The notes below the pieces were generated by a model, which made no database searches, was not told where the DNA came from, and was given only the letters and a program-made list of their open reading frames with translations. The position numbers were made by a program, and so were the translations under genes. From Nitrospirota bacterium (GTDB lineage: Bacteria > Nitrospirota > Nitrospiria > SBBL01 > JAADHI01): DNA of 34,395 nt. The first letter of the stretch is position 1. Every line of letters begins with the position of its first letter. Positions 8,766 to 23,391 of the stretch are shown here, in pieces. The stretch is taken from NCBI GenBank assembly GCA_029261215.1, contig JAJDBT010000115.1:1-34395 (forward strand), given 5' to 3'.

Positions 8766-9034
8766 GATGTTCTCCTTGTAAACAAATTCGTAAAAAACCG
8801 CCAAACGGTAAAGCCCGATTTGATCAGAGCCCCGTGTTCCATTTTTAGAACGGAACCCTCTGTCCGCTTATATGACAGATCAAAAATAAAAAGTCAAAAT
8901 ACGAATGATTCAGCATGCCATACACATTGAGAGACGGTTTGAGTGAGAGTCCTGGCGTCTTTGAAAGAGAATTTTAAAGGCGTAGAATTAAAACAACCCG
9001 CTCTTCTTCCGTGTCCACAGAAAAAAAGGTCACC

Positions 9035-10276
9035 ATGCCCATAAGGCAAAAAATATGTGTTGTCCTGGTTTTTGTGCTTGTTTTTACGGTTTGGCCAAAT
9101 CCGGGCGCGGCTTTTTATGAATGGCAAAATGGCGCGTATTCCGGGGACATCCGCGCACTGGTGCGCGGGTTTGGCATTGTCACACATTACCCGGAGCAGA
9201 ACGATTTTATTCAGGATCAGACGGATTCAGGGCTAGCGGGGATCGGGCGCCTGATCACTCAAGCGGCATGGGGTAAACATCTTTGGCTCGATATGAATGT
9301 CTATCAAACCTATATTCCGGTGGACTTGCTGTCCGGGCAAGGTCATCTGGGCGCCCCGCTGAATGTAGAACGGAGCAGTGTATTGGAGCTGAGCTTTAGC
9401 AATGATCAATATATCCATTTGGCCTTTGATCAACTTCATCTGCGTATCACTTTCGACTGGCTGGATGTGAAGGTCGGACGGCAGCCGATCAACCTGGCGA
9501 CCAATTTTTATTTCACGCCGAATGATTTTTTTTCGCCCTTCTCGGCACAAGTCTTTTACCGCGTGTATAAACCCGGGGTGGATGCGGCGCGCGCTGAAAT
9601 CCGATTGGGGCCGCTTTCACAATTGTCCTTGATCAGTGTTTTGGGATACGGGCGCGATCCGGACAGTGATACCGGTTGGCAGGATGCACCGGACAGCCGT
9701 CGCGCCTCGCACCTCGGTCGGCTTTCAACCGTGTGGCGGGATACGGAATGGGCCTTGTTGATTGGCGAGGTGCGGGATGAAAACATCATCGGTGGATCGG
9801 TGCAAGGGGATGTCTTGAATTGGCTTGGTTTTCGGGCGGAAGGGCATGTGGCCGATCCGAAAGAAAGCGGTCAAGCGGATCACGCAGAGTGGAGCCTTGG
9901 CGTGGATCATCGCTGGGAAAACAGCCTCGATGTACGGCTGGCGTTTTTTTATCATGGGCGGGGTACGGGAAAAGTTTCGGATTACGATGTCTCGTCTGCG
10001 TCCGATGTAAATCCCTATTTGGCCCGACGCTATCTGGCTTTTGGCGGAGGATATGAATTCACTCCGCTGCTCAGGGGAGATGCCTTGGCGCTCGTTAATC
10101 TCGTCGATCATTCTTTTTTTATGGCACTCAATACTGTGTATTCCCTTTCCGATGAAGCGGAACTGGTCTTGAATGCCGCGCTGCCCTTTGGTCAGCGACC
10201 CGCGGGGGACGTCATCGAAAGCGAATTCGGACTTGCCCCCTTCACGTTCAACCTGGAAATTCGCTCCTACTTTTAA
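9035..10276 (+). CDS. Outer-membrane beta-barrel (porin-like, alginate-export-like)
   Basis: 413 residues from the ATG at 9035 (AAGG 5 bases upstream); an upstream GTG at 9011 lacks a ribosome-binding site. A signal peptide ends near GAA/FYEW. The mature protein is rich in alternating strands, opens with the pattern ALVRGFGIV, contains FDWLDVKVGRQPINLATNF (a motif common in alginate-export and porin-like barrels, where a strand ends in GRQ), and ends in FNLEIRSYF with the terminal phenylalanine expected for Bam-dependent insertion. Probably a 16- to 18-stranded barrel. Because a LolA-like/FtsX transporter lies 2 kb upstream it could be an outer-membrane partner, but that is inference only. 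Confidence 0.75.
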   Translation: MPIRQKICVVLVFVLVFTVWPNPGAAFYEWQNGAYSGDIRALVRGFGIVTHYPEQNDFIQDQTDSGLAGIGRLITQAAWGKHLWLDMNVYQTYIPVDLLSGQGHLGAPLNVERSSVLELSFSNDQYIHLAFDQLHLRITFDWLDVKVGRQPINLATNFYFTPNDFFSPFSAQVFYRVYKPGVDAARAEIRLGPLSQLSLISVLGYGRDPDSDTGWQDAPDSRRASHLGRLSTVWRDTEWALLIGEVRDENIIGGSVQGDVLNWLGFRAEGHVADPKESGQADHAEWSLGVDHRWENSLDVRLAFFYHGRGTGKVSDYDVSSASDVNPYLARRYLAFGGGYEFTPLLRGDALALVNLVDHSFFMALNTVYSLSDEAELVLNAALPFGQRPAGDVIESEFGLAPFTFNLEIRSYF

Positions 10277-11573: not shown

Positions 11574-13259
11574 CTATTCCCCGATTTCAAAGTCAAAGGG
11601 GATGGTTCGCATCTGGTGATTCTCTGGGTGCTCGTAGTCTAAAAGGAGTCGGTATTTCCCAGTGGTTAAGCGCTCAGACTCAGTATTGGGGAGCTCGAAA
11701 ATAGCTGTGGTCGTGCTTGATTTTGAGTCTTTTTCTATAGCCCTTACAAGCTCCGCTTGGTCAAAGATTCGGAGTTTTTTTATGTGGTCTTTTAGGCCCT
11801 TTGCGTGTTGAAATTCGAAAGTTTGGAGGACGGTGAAGGCGCTCTTTGCCACTTTAGGTTCGGGTGAGACGAGCTTGAATGAGCCCATACGTTCGATCTC
11901 TTGAATTTTTTGTTGTGCTTTTTCCAAATGTTTGAGTGTTTCTCCGATCCGTTCTGCGTCGAGCGAAGACGGCTCCTTGATTTTTGATAAAAGGTCTTTT
12001 TCGGTTTGACTCAGGGCCTTGCGTTTGTCCCAATTAGAGGGATCTCGGCCCTGTTCAATGGAGAAGGTCAGCCAGGTTTTTGCCTCGTAAGGCTTTGATT
12101 CGGTGTCTTTTTTTAAAACCAGTTTACGGGAATTCGGCTCAAAGGAGATGTGTTCTCCGCCGTCCATATATGAGCCTGATTCCCCTTGAAAAGAAACCGT
12201 CGTCTCTTTTTTGCCGTCAATTTTTTTATTATAGCTGATTGTCAGCATGGGTTTGTCTTGATCGAAGGACAGTGAGTGAATCTCCTGATTTGTCTTAAAA
12301 GTCTCCGTCATACCGGCCGGGTCTTCCGTCCAGCCGGGTTTGTTTTGATGCACTGTGAGGGGCATGACCGAGGCCAGCTCCGGGGTATCCGCAAAAATTT
12401 TGACCAGGGTGACGGGGACGGTGGTCAGCGCGAGATCGCCAATCACTGCGAAAAATTTGGGGATAGCCGTGTACCAGGACCAGTCCCCTACATTTTTGGT
12501 CATGGGCCAATAGCAACGAAACAAGGGACATTGCTCTTGTTTAATGATGGCCCAATTGCCGGGCCGCAATGCAATGGGCCTGTGTCCGTCATTGATTGTC
12601 TTGTTTATGGTATTGGGGTCTTTAGGTAACAAATCAAACTTGAAATCCAGAACAATGTCACTTTCGTTGGTTTCAATCAGGGCCTTGGCAATTTCCTTGG
12701 CCAGAGAAATCTCTGCCGAAGTGACCGGGTCGGCCAGGGAGAAGGCTTCGGTCGCGCTGCCGATAAAATCAAGAAAGGCGGATTGATTGTCCTTTTCTTC
12801 GCCGTCAAACTCGATTACCTGAATCTGGACGGAAACAACATCGCCTTCAACACGTTTCGGCCCATAGCTGACATTTCCAATCGATGAGGCATAGGATTCA
12901 TCGCCTGTCCGTTCCATGGGGCCGACGATCTTAACGATCTTATGGTCATCCGAATCGCTCTCTCCTTCGTTGAAGGTAAATACCAACACCACTTCATTTT
13001 CGCCCCAAAGGTCAGGCATGTATTTAAAAAACGCCTGATCAAAATAGAGCGTGAAAGAATCCTCATTGGTGGATGACGTCGATGGTGTCTTCTTTGAGAT
13101 AATGTCAGTGTGGGTGTCGGCGTCTTTCCATGGCCCGTAAAGCCGTTGGTTGTTCTGGTCAATTTGAAGAAGATGCACATTCCCGTTCAGGGGCGCGCAT
13201 GCGGAAAAAAGGATGAACAACAAGCCGATGGGAAACCTTCGAACGTTTGAACTCAACAT
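11574..13259 (-). CDS. Predicted lipoprotein of unknown function
   Basis: 561 residues, not recognised. A lipoprotein signal peptide is visible: hydrophobic FPIGLLFILFSAC with the lipidated cysteine at C21. AAGGAGG is 4 bases before the ATG. The mature protein is acidic and hydrophilic, without clear repeats. A short hydrophobic stretch (about 255-285, FFAVIGDLALTTVPVTLVKI) is probably buried. Residues about 425-455 form a helix (KHLEKAQQKIQEIERM) and the last 95 residues look like a beta-sandwich ending in FDFEIGE. It lies 30 bases after ppdK on the same strand but with its own ribosome-binding site, and converges on the rod-like gene. Confidence 0.75.
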   Translation of the reverse strand: MLSSNVRRFPIGLLFILFSACAPLNGNVHLLQIDQNNQRLYGPWKDADTHTDIISKKTPSTSSTNEDSFTLYFDQAFFKYMPDLWGENEVVLVFTFNEGESDSDDHKIVKIVGPMERTGDESYASSIGNVSYGPKRVEGDVVSVQIQVIEFDGEEKDNQSAFLDFIGSATEAFSLADPVTSAEISLAKEIAKALIETNESDIVLDFKFDLLPKDPNTINKTINDGHRPIALRPGNWAIIKQEQCPLFRCYWPMTKNVGDWSWYTAIPKFFAVIGDLALTTVPVTLVKIFADTPELASVMPLTVHQNKPGWTEDPAGMTETFKTNQEIHSLSFDQDKPMLTISYNKKIDGKKETTVSFQGESGSYMDGGEHISFEPNSRKLVLKKDTESKPYEAKTWLTFSIEQGRDPSNWDKRKALSQTEKDLLSKIKEPSSLDAERIGETLKHLEKAQQKIQEIERMGSFKLVSPEPKVAKSAFTVLQTFEFQHAKGLKDHIKKLRIFDQAELVRAIEKDSKSSTTTAIFELPNTESERLTTGKYRLLLDYEHPENHQMRTIPFDFEIGE

Positions 13260-21754: not shown

Positions 21755-22024
21755 ATGTCGAGCCAGGCAACAAAGGAAAAAATTGAACACAAAATGAAGA
21801 CGGAACTGTCAGCCACATCTGTAGAAGTGATTGATGACAGCTGGAAACATGCGGGCCATGCACAGGCTGGCGGGGGGGGGCATTTCACGTTGTCGCTCGT
21901 CTCGGAAAAGTTTGAAGGGGTTTCCCTTTTGAACCGAAACAGAATGGTGTTTGATGTACTTAAGGAAGAAATGAAGGGCGAAATTCACGCCCTTGCCGTG
22001 AAAGCCAAAACACCGGGCGAGTAA
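21755..22024 (+). CDS. BolA family protein
   Basis: 89 residues. The class II KH-like BolA fold shows EVIDDSWKHAGHA, GGGGHFTLSLVSEKFEG, LLNRNRMVFDVLKEEM and GEIHALAVKAKTP, with the invariant histidine in IHAL and the H-x-GH region that binds Fe-S clusters with monothiol glutaredoxins. BolA proteins take part in iron-sulfur trafficking and stress responses. AGAGGTG precedes the ATG. A run of nine G (21872-21880) lies within the Gly-rich segment; it is in frame as read. No glutaredoxin gene is adjacent. Confidence 0.93.
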   Translation: MSSQATKEKIEHKMKTELSATSVEVIDDSWKHAGHAQAGGGGHFTLSLVSEKFEGVSLLNRNRMVFDVLKEEMKGEIHALAVKAKTPGE

Positions 22025-22036
22025 TCCCGAATCGTC

Positions 22037-23119
22037 TTATTTCGCAAAATGCACAGCATAAACAGGCGGGAAGTGACTGGAGATTTCCTGCCAGTCGTCC
22101 CCGCCGTTTTCTGAAATCCACAGACCTCCGGTGGTTGATCCCATGGCGAGCTGTGATCCGCTTTCATCGACATCCAGTCCGTGCCGGTAGACCAGGTCAT
22201 AACACTGTTCTCCCGGCAGGCCTTTTGATAAAGACTCAAAGTGTTGTCCCCCGTCGCGGGTACGATTGACGACCAGGCGTGCGCCGACCGGCACCCGTTT
22301 TTCATCCTTTACGGCAGGCACAAACCATGCGGTTTCGGGGTTTTTGGGGTGAACGGCGAGTGCAAAACCAAAAACAGACGGTGAGACTTCTGTTAATTCT
22401 GCCCAATCTTGTCCCGCGTTTTTAGACACAAAAATGCCATTGTGGTGCTGGCACCACAATGTATCGGGATTTGCAGCCGAACTGCGAATGGCGTGCGCAT
22501 CCTGAACATGATTCAGTCCTGAAAGCTCAGGCGGCACGTAGGCGGCACGCAGACCCTTCCCGCGCGGCACCCAGGACCCGCCATCATCCGTGCTGCGCCA
22601 TACCCCGCCAGTCGAAATGCCTAGTGTAATGCACGCGCCATTGTTGGGGTCGATACAAATAGAGTGAATGCCGGGTTCATCGTATCCGCCGCCCTGCCAT
22701 TGTTTGCGTTCGGGCAGGTTCCAAAGTGAATTGACCAATTTCCATGACGCGCCCCGGTCGTCGGAGCGAAATAATCCGCCGGGAATGGTGCCAGCCCAAA
22801 GCCGTCCGGCTTGATCCGCTGTGCCTGGCATGAGGCACCAAAGCAGTTTGACGTTAAAATCCTTTTCTTCCGAGGTCTCTTTAGGAAAGGCGGGTGTCGC
22901 CATTTCTTCCCAGTGCGCTCCTGCATCCGTGGAGCGGTGCAGTTTAACGCCAAAATGACCGAGGTCGAGTGCCGCGTAGACTGCACCGTCCCGGCTATCC
23001 TGAAGGACATAGGAAACAGGGTCTCCGAGAAAATAAGGGTCTCTAACGCGCCATTTTCCTTCAATACAATCGAGCCTGAAAAGTCCTTTCCGTGTCGCTA
23101 CCCAAAGTCGATTTGCCAT
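22037..23119 (-). CDS. Cytoplasmic Asp-box (BNR) beta-propeller protein
   Basis: 360 residues without a signal peptide (MANRLWVATRKGLFRLD). Six Asp-box motifs at 63-70 (STDAGAHW), 119-126 (SDDRGASW), 176-183 (STDDGGSW), 232-239 (SKNAGQDW), 287-294 (TRDGGQHF) and 336-343 (SENGGDDW) give a propeller like sialidases and YCF48/Hcf136. The spacing (about 50 residues) suggests six or seven blades. No sialidase arginine triad is evident, so a glycosidase label is not supported. The gene starts 2 bases after the stop of the MoaD/ThiS-like gene, and its AGGAGGA ribosome-binding site lies within that gene. It is therefore coupled to the ubiquitin-like partner; its reaction is unknown. Confidence 0.85.
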   Translation of the reverse strand: MANRLWVATRKGLFRLDCIEGKWRVRDPYFLGDPVSYVLQDSRDGAVYAALDLGHFGVKLHRSTDAGAHWEEMATPAFPKETSEEKDFNVKLLWCLMPGTADQAGRLWAGTIPGGLFRSDDRGASWKLVNSLWNLPERKQWQGGGYDEPGIHSICIDPNNGACITLGISTGGVWRSTDDGGSWVPRGKGLRAAYVPPELSGLNHVQDAHAIRSSAANPDTLWCQHHNGIFVSKNAGQDWAELTEVSPSVFGFALAVHPKNPETAWFVPAVKDEKRVPVGARLVVNRTRDGGQHFESLSKGLPGEQCYDLVYRHGLDVDESGSQLAMGSTTGGLWISENGGDDWQEISSHFPPVYAVHFAK

Positions 23120-23121
23120 TT

Positions 23122-23391
23122 TTATCCTCCTGACAAGGCTTGCATAATATAGATTTCTGATGAAGGGGTGATCGCATCACTGAGTGTTGCTCTATCTGAA
23201 AGCGGGATATTATCGATAAATACGGTGACATGTTTTCTCAGCTGACCCTGGTCGTCTACGATATAGGACTGCAAGGCCGGATGTTTTAAAAACGCGTTGT
23301 TCAAAATCTCCCGGAGTGTTGCGCCCGGAACCTCAAAGCTTCGGGCATCGATAAACCGGCTGAGATGATCTGTCAAATAGATTTGAGCCAT
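23122..23391 (-). CDS. MoaD/ThiS-like ubiquitin-fold protein
   Basis: 89 residues ending in the required diglycine (MQALSGG). The beta-grasp features are IYLTDHLSRFI, VPGATLREILNNAF, LRKHVTVFIDNIPL and PSSEIYIMQALSGG. In MoaD and ThiS the terminal glycine is adenylated and thiocarboxylated by an E1-like enzyme to donate sulfur. No moaE, thiF, moeB or thiG is present here; the partner is the Asp-box propeller directly downstream. The last two codons GGA-GGA, with the preceding A, are also the Shine-Dalgarno of that next gene. I see no strong ribosome-binding site for this gene itself. It is divergent from the histidine kinase. Confidence 0.87.
   Translation of the reverse strand: MAQIYLTDHLSRFIDARSFEVPGATLREILNNAFLKHPALQSYIVDDQGQLRKHVTVFIDNIPLSDRATLSDAITPSSEIYIMQALSGG

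Follow-up and report, generated by a model that had tools for sequence, protein, structure and literature searches.

What might a small β-grasp protein with a terminal diglycine do in the company of a β-propeller that lacks a leader? The question is raised by two adjacent genes of a Nitrospirota bacterium, which lie on the minus strand of the window (the whole analysed stretch of 34,395 nucleotides), where the initial annotation had placed them (Table 1). Ubiquitin is presumed to descend from ubiquitin-like sulfur carriers, all known members of which are understood by way of their partner enzymes. A widespread carrier with a β-propeller as its sole fixed partner points to an unexplored route of sulfur transfer or protein tagging. 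The annotation had described a β-grasp protein ending in Gly-Gly (the carrier), whose stop codon is followed after two nucleotides by the gene of a propeller with six Asp-boxes and without a signal peptide. The spacing was borne out by the sequence, the propeller by its translation and the carrier by its ALSGG tail and by a family profile that matches CysO structures.

Table 1. Positions of the carrier and propeller genes and of their shared elements in the window
Feature	Position	Strand	Basis or details
MoaD/ThiS/CysO-like β-grasp CDS, 89 aa, C-terminus MQALSGG	23122..23391	-	ORF translation; own-genome profile match E 1.1e-32
Leaderless seven-bladed Asp-box propeller CDS, 360 aa	22037..23119	-	AlphaFold2 pLDDT 95.2, pTM 0.93; Foldseek 3b7f TM 0.91
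GGA GGA, terminal diglycine codons and propeller Shine-Dalgarno	23125..23130	-	Sequence; codon statistics, 73 loci
Carrier stop TAA, 2-nt gap, propeller start ATG	23117..23124	-	Sequence
Propeller-gene stretch with conserved top-face residues	22184..23095	-	T9, R10, K11, H55, D147, H152, D207, H209, Q224, H226, R275, R312

On the coding strand the junction reads TCA GGA GGA TAA AA ATG. Both terminal Gly codons go into an AGGAGG motif located 6 nt upstream of the propeller ATG (23117-23119). Because the diglycine codons are in this way the Shine-Dalgarno of the next gene, ribosomes that finish the carrier would be expected to translate the propeller from the same mRNA; the Shine-Dalgarno is read from sequence and codon statistics, and coupling in the cell would be its consequence. 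For the codon statistics, the penultimate Gly codon was scored and a propeller ATG 0-8 nt past the carrier stop was counted as a close start. GGA occupies this position at 31/32 close-start loci compared with 7/39 distant ones (Fisher p=5e-12). Among loci with a GC content of at least 0.6, the counts are 27/28 and 0/23, respectively, and GGA makes up 6% of the Gly codons in the propeller genes of these GC-rich loci. Such a bias at abutting genes argues that the codon is selected there as a ribosome site, so that the double use of the diglycine codons proposed by the initial annotation holds wherever the genes abut. The idea that Gly-Gly is retained merely as a ribosome site is refuted, since the diglycine is kept equally well with a far start or a reversed gene order. 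The overlap neatly illustrates how the same six bases can be constrained by protein and translation alike.

The initial annotation had mentioned similar pairs in other genomes, and a survey of co-occurrence bears this out. Of 118 distinct propeller loci that could be tested, drawn from nine phyla, 115 have a carrier gene adjoining the propeller gene, in either order; the loci stem from 20 class-level relatives, 80 named-genome loci and 20 further loci of the window's phylum, with one locus repeated. A β-grasp gene adjoins the propeller gene at every one of the 20 class-level loci. The named genomes, searched with the propeller as the only query, cover Pseudomonadota, Planctomycetota, Verrucomicrobiota, Acidobacteriota, Actinomycetota, Bacteroidota, Chlorobiota and Chloroflexota, and the carrier is present at 77 of their 80 loci, the exceptions being a contig edge (L127), a carrier gene interrupted by one nonsense codon (L095) and one locus with no carrier (L103). 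Selection bias cannot account for the linkage because the loci were picked by the propeller and not by the pair. The further loci of the phylum have the carrier in 19 of 20 cases; at the remaining one (L169, G209:C1:2926357-2927442) the propeller gene contains an internal TAG and has no adjoining carrier, and a second, paralogous propeller of that genome is intact. Propeller and carrier have apparently decayed jointly there.

The carrier gene comes first in the clade of the window and in a Bacteroidota/Chloroflexota clade, and the propeller gene comes first in two subfamilies of class relatives (types A and B) and at L126 and L129, often with a 4-nt ATGA overlap. The recurrence of the same partners in both orders argues for a functional pair, and a chance or incidental neighbourhood is ruled out by linkage at this frequency. 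The intergenic distance is below 0.5 kb at most loci and reaches about 1.3 kb at L128; no natural fusion of the two genes was seen at roughly 120 loci. A larger operon was also considered and rejected, as clustering of the neighbours of about 100 loci gave no third gene conserved across phyla. In the tree, the window propeller falls within a mainly betaproteobacterial clade (support 95/96), at a distance from the type A subfamily of the class to which the bacterium belongs, and it is present in 2/5 searched members of the genus. This placement and patchy presence make horizontal acquisition likely. Judged from the genome sequences, the carrier-propeller pair is a real, widespread two-protein module. 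It has apparently not been described so far: a literature search retrieved no paper on the pair, a search in part weakened by ThiS being also an English word.

The carrier can be assigned to the ThiS/MoaD/CysO/SAMP superfamily on the basis of family-profile matches and predicted fold. Its family profile matches solved CysO proteins with E values of 1.9e-14 and 1.8e-11, Pfam ThiS recognizes 10/17 members of the family and the AlphaFold2 model of a read-through chain displays the strand-strand-helix-strand pattern. The window protein by itself scores 16.8 bits with Pfam ThiS (cut-off 22.5) and 33.9 bits with NCBIfam SAMP1 (NF041918; cut-off 60), and its score thus lies below the level of SAMP1 membership. 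Gly-Gly forms the exact C-terminal end in 119/122 pairs, as in ubiquitin-like sulfur carriers, and has been lost in one Nonomuraea carrier. Linkage and diglycine, whose lack of conservation the initial annotation had named among the refuting observations, are both clearly conserved. Two carriers (L067:5702-6004 and L113:5699-5983) continue for 11 and 4 residues beyond Gly-Gly, respectively, overlapping the propeller start; these extensions would have to be trimmed, or else be effects of annotation or assembly. Identification as MoaD was rejected, given the missing moa context, the location of MoaE on another contig and the lack of any gene family recurring beside the pair across phyla. CysO was rejected likewise: the partner here is a propeller and not CysM with the JAMM peptidase Mec, and the genome has its own cluster of carrier, cysteine synthase and E1 elsewhere (L137). 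A second, solitary carrier gene (L031:9956-10225), three genes away from the pair in genome G002, encodes a protein with 78% identity to the window carrier.

Repeats and modelled fold both identify the partner as an Asp-box β-propeller. Asp-boxes occupy residues 62-70, 118-126, 175-183, 231-239, 286-294 and 335-343, the Pfam models BNR (29.5, cut-off 27) and Sortilin-Vps10 (40.1, cut-off 33) are exceeded and the chain begins directly in the first strand of the seven predicted blades. Public records annotate such proteins as exo-alpha-sialidase and the fold is common to GH74, which might make the propeller a glycosidase with an incidental carrier. This reading is very improbable. GH74 enzymes are secreted double propellers, and a GH33 or GH74 identity was rejected for a leaderless single propeller that has neither a tandem second propeller nor the sialidase F/Y-R-I-P motif. 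GH74 structures align at 11-18% identity with a TM of about 0.65 in Foldseek, against 0.91 for the best match 3b7f, and the linkage in both gene orders excludes an incidental carrier. The label exo-alpha-sialidase is misleading for the family, and the pairing replaces it.

The best match belongs to the same family (34% identity in the structural alignment; E 4e-120 with the propeller family profile) and is likewise seven-bladed. The crystal structure, a structural-genomics entry, has stood unexplained since 2007. It represents Reut_B4987 (YP_299179.1) of Ralstonia eutropha JMP134, whose function is given as not known in PMC2716378; the available part of that paper does not mention a β-grasp partner.

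Residues were assigned to the faces of the propeller by combining the order of strands in the model with the topology described for Asp-boxes (PMC2716378). The loops of the top face hold 11/18 conserved charged, His or Gln residues (R10, K11, H55, D147, H152, D207, H209, H226, R275, R312, H313), and the three conserved residues of the bottom face are structural Asp-box aspartates. With the structural aspartates counted in, conserved charged residues are not significantly enriched on the top face (p=0.13). According to the same source, the active residues of all known Asp-box glycosidases are in loop 2-3 of the top face (PMC2716378). A core of T9, K11, H152, D/C207, H209, Q224, H226, R/H275 and R312 is kept family-wide, also in four solo propellers that are 31-37% identical (three from Rhodobacterales, one from Streptomyces: L142, L144, L145 and L147), all with Cys for Asp at 207. 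The core site is not carrier-specific because propellers without an adjoining carrier gene retain it. The site therefore probably has a ligand of its own, with the carrier as an added donor or cofactor. The identity of residue 207 switches together with carrier residue -3, where S or T accompanies Asp in 97 pairs and Ala accompanies Cys in 21, with no exceptions. This switch would fit a tail that reaches the site, and it may reflect merely one or two evolutionary events.

Docking of the carrier was assessed with a Planctomycetota locus (L052; propeller 56% identical) where the genes are in frame and can be read through as a single chain with a 19-residue linker. AlphaFold2 folded this tethered construct with a pLDDT of 92.7 and a pTM of 0.90, the linker staying below a pLDDT of 50. 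By our own estimate, an unplaced carrier would give a pTM of about 0.76 (the propeller is 76% of the chain; d0 about 7.8 Å), and a value of 0.90 requires a mean error of the carrier near 3 Å. The difference between 0.90 and the expected 0.76 therefore supports a carrier docked on the propeller in this model. The initial annotation had looked to a predicted complex for the diglycine tail entering the propeller: contact is supported indirectly, by the one tethered construct, and the tail is not confidently placed, with an estimated pLDDT of about 60 for the last four residues.

Strict pairing and predicted docking would also fit a β-grasp protein that is a permanent small subunit, chaperone or regulator of the propeller, its Gly-Gly docked in the propeller channel with no E1 chemistry involved. 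The joint decay in G209 agrees with this, as does Roseomonas MO-31, a draft genome in which no E1 (ThiF family) scores over the cut-off. The positive top face could hold a free C-terminal carboxylate in the manner of Ycf48/HCF136, which binds D1 carboxylates through a conserved Arg patch and has its outside wrapped by the C-terminal tail of D1 (PMC10403576). Ycf48/HCF136 resembles the window propeller in being a seven-bladed Asp-box protein (Foldseek TM about 0.57) and differs in being a lumenal Photosystem II assembly factor with 12-17% identity and no ubiquitin-like partner. We nevertheless regard a permanent subunit as unlikely: a conserved terminal Gly-Gly is the signature of E1-activated carriers, E1 exceeds the family cut-off in 35/36 pair-bearing genomes, a tail that served just for binding should show more variation and the two C-terminally extended carriers would have their tail docking blocked unless trimmed.

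The E1 count has little weight as evidence of co-occurrence because E1 is near universal. As the initial annotation had noted, neither E1 nor MoaE is near the pair; a profile search found none on the contig of the window, and the matches of this genome are located on other contigs. Two strong E1 genes are at C95, clustered with another carrier. This sulfur cluster (G000:C95, L137:5396-10037) comprises a ThiS-like protein that runs past its Gly-Gly (..MGGGSGHDLRQ), a cysteine-synthase-like protein, E1, a threonine-synthase-like protein, a carrier ending in IAGG, a small NIL-like protein and the second E1, where the two synthase-like labels are our reading of the sequences. An E1 was found adjoining the pair at a single locus, that of Sulfidibacter corallicola (L122:4439-5656), divergently oriented with start codons about 38 bases apart. 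One E1, TtuC, serves several carriers in Thermus (PMC3980101), and a dual role of Mycobacterium MoeZR is reported (PMC3227635). With E1 encoded elsewhere in nearly all pair-bearing genomes and shared E1s established in other bacteria, the missing nearby E1 means little.

The initial annotation had suggested sulfur transfer or protein tagging, and these still offer the natural reading. In protein tagging, the carrier would become joined to lysines, as SAMP1, TtuB or Urm1 do, and the propeller would read the tag or present substrates. SAMP1 is the best NCBIfam match of the carrier, though under the cut-off, TtuB and Urm1 perform both jobs (PMC3980101, PMC8561144), and the Asp-box propellers of sortilin, Ycf48 and DAIP are known protein-binding modules (PMC10403576). 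We give tagging a low probability, however. Neither an E2 nor a conserved JAMM peptidase is found beside the pair, and Prok-JAB exceeds its cut-off in just 22/36 pair genomes. A fixed 1:1 partner across phyla resembles a carrier with a dedicated enzyme more than a general tag, and the polar pocket is retained in carrier-less propellers. A ubiquitin-like defence system was rejected as well, since neither protein matches the PADLOC models.

In the explanation that we favour, with about even confidence, the β-grasp protein would carry sulfur after activation by an E1, and the propeller would be the enzyme or receptor dedicated to accepting it; the pairing is observed and the chemistry is what we infer from it. 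After coupled translation, an E1 encoded elsewhere would adenylate the terminal Gly and a sulfurtransferase would convert it to a thiocarboxylate, as in other members of the family. The carrier would then dock on the propeller as in the fused-chain model, so that Gly-Gly might reach the Lys/Arg/His/Asp/Gln site of the top face. Finally, a small-molecule ligand of the propeller could receive the sulfur; the propeller would thus take the role of ThiG, MoaE, CysM or TtuA. Somewhat less probable than the carrier-acceptor reading itself is the further proposal that this is the first β-propeller enzyme with a ubiquitin-like carrier as sulfur donor, a new class spanning at least nine bacterial phyla.

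Among known systems, CysO (PDB 3dwg and 4n6e) is the closest solved β-grasp protein and shares with the window carrier the terminal Gly-Gly and a dedicated partner. CysM, a PLP enzyme, and BexX, a ThiG-like barrel, are the partners in these two structures, and neither of them is a propeller. To our knowledge, ThiS-ThiG, MoaD-MoaE and TtuB-TtuA have no β-propeller partner either. The latter pairs follow the same logic of an E1-activated carrier with a dedicated acceptor, and one E1 can serve several carriers (PMC3980101). In their 2006 survey of the contexts of ubiquitin-like proteins in prokaryotes, Iyer et al. do not use the word "propeller".

The surroundings of the pair vary between clades. 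In both type A and type B, as well as in a copy on a Pseudomonas aeruginosa plasmid that belongs to the clade of the window, the pair is surrounded by genes for an ECF sigma factor with DUF6596 and for YCII and VOC/PhnB-like proteins, and this neighbourhood suggests a stress- or metabolite-related role. Such genes are found within 6 kb of the pair at L034, L035, L037, L046, L048 and L140, which represent three propeller subfamilies; the window's own locus is without them. Two long open reading frames of the window, at 11574-13259 (561 aa) and 9011-10276 (421 aa), have no Pfam match. A BolA-family gene at 21755-22024 is convergent with the propeller gene and also adjoins the pair in G002.
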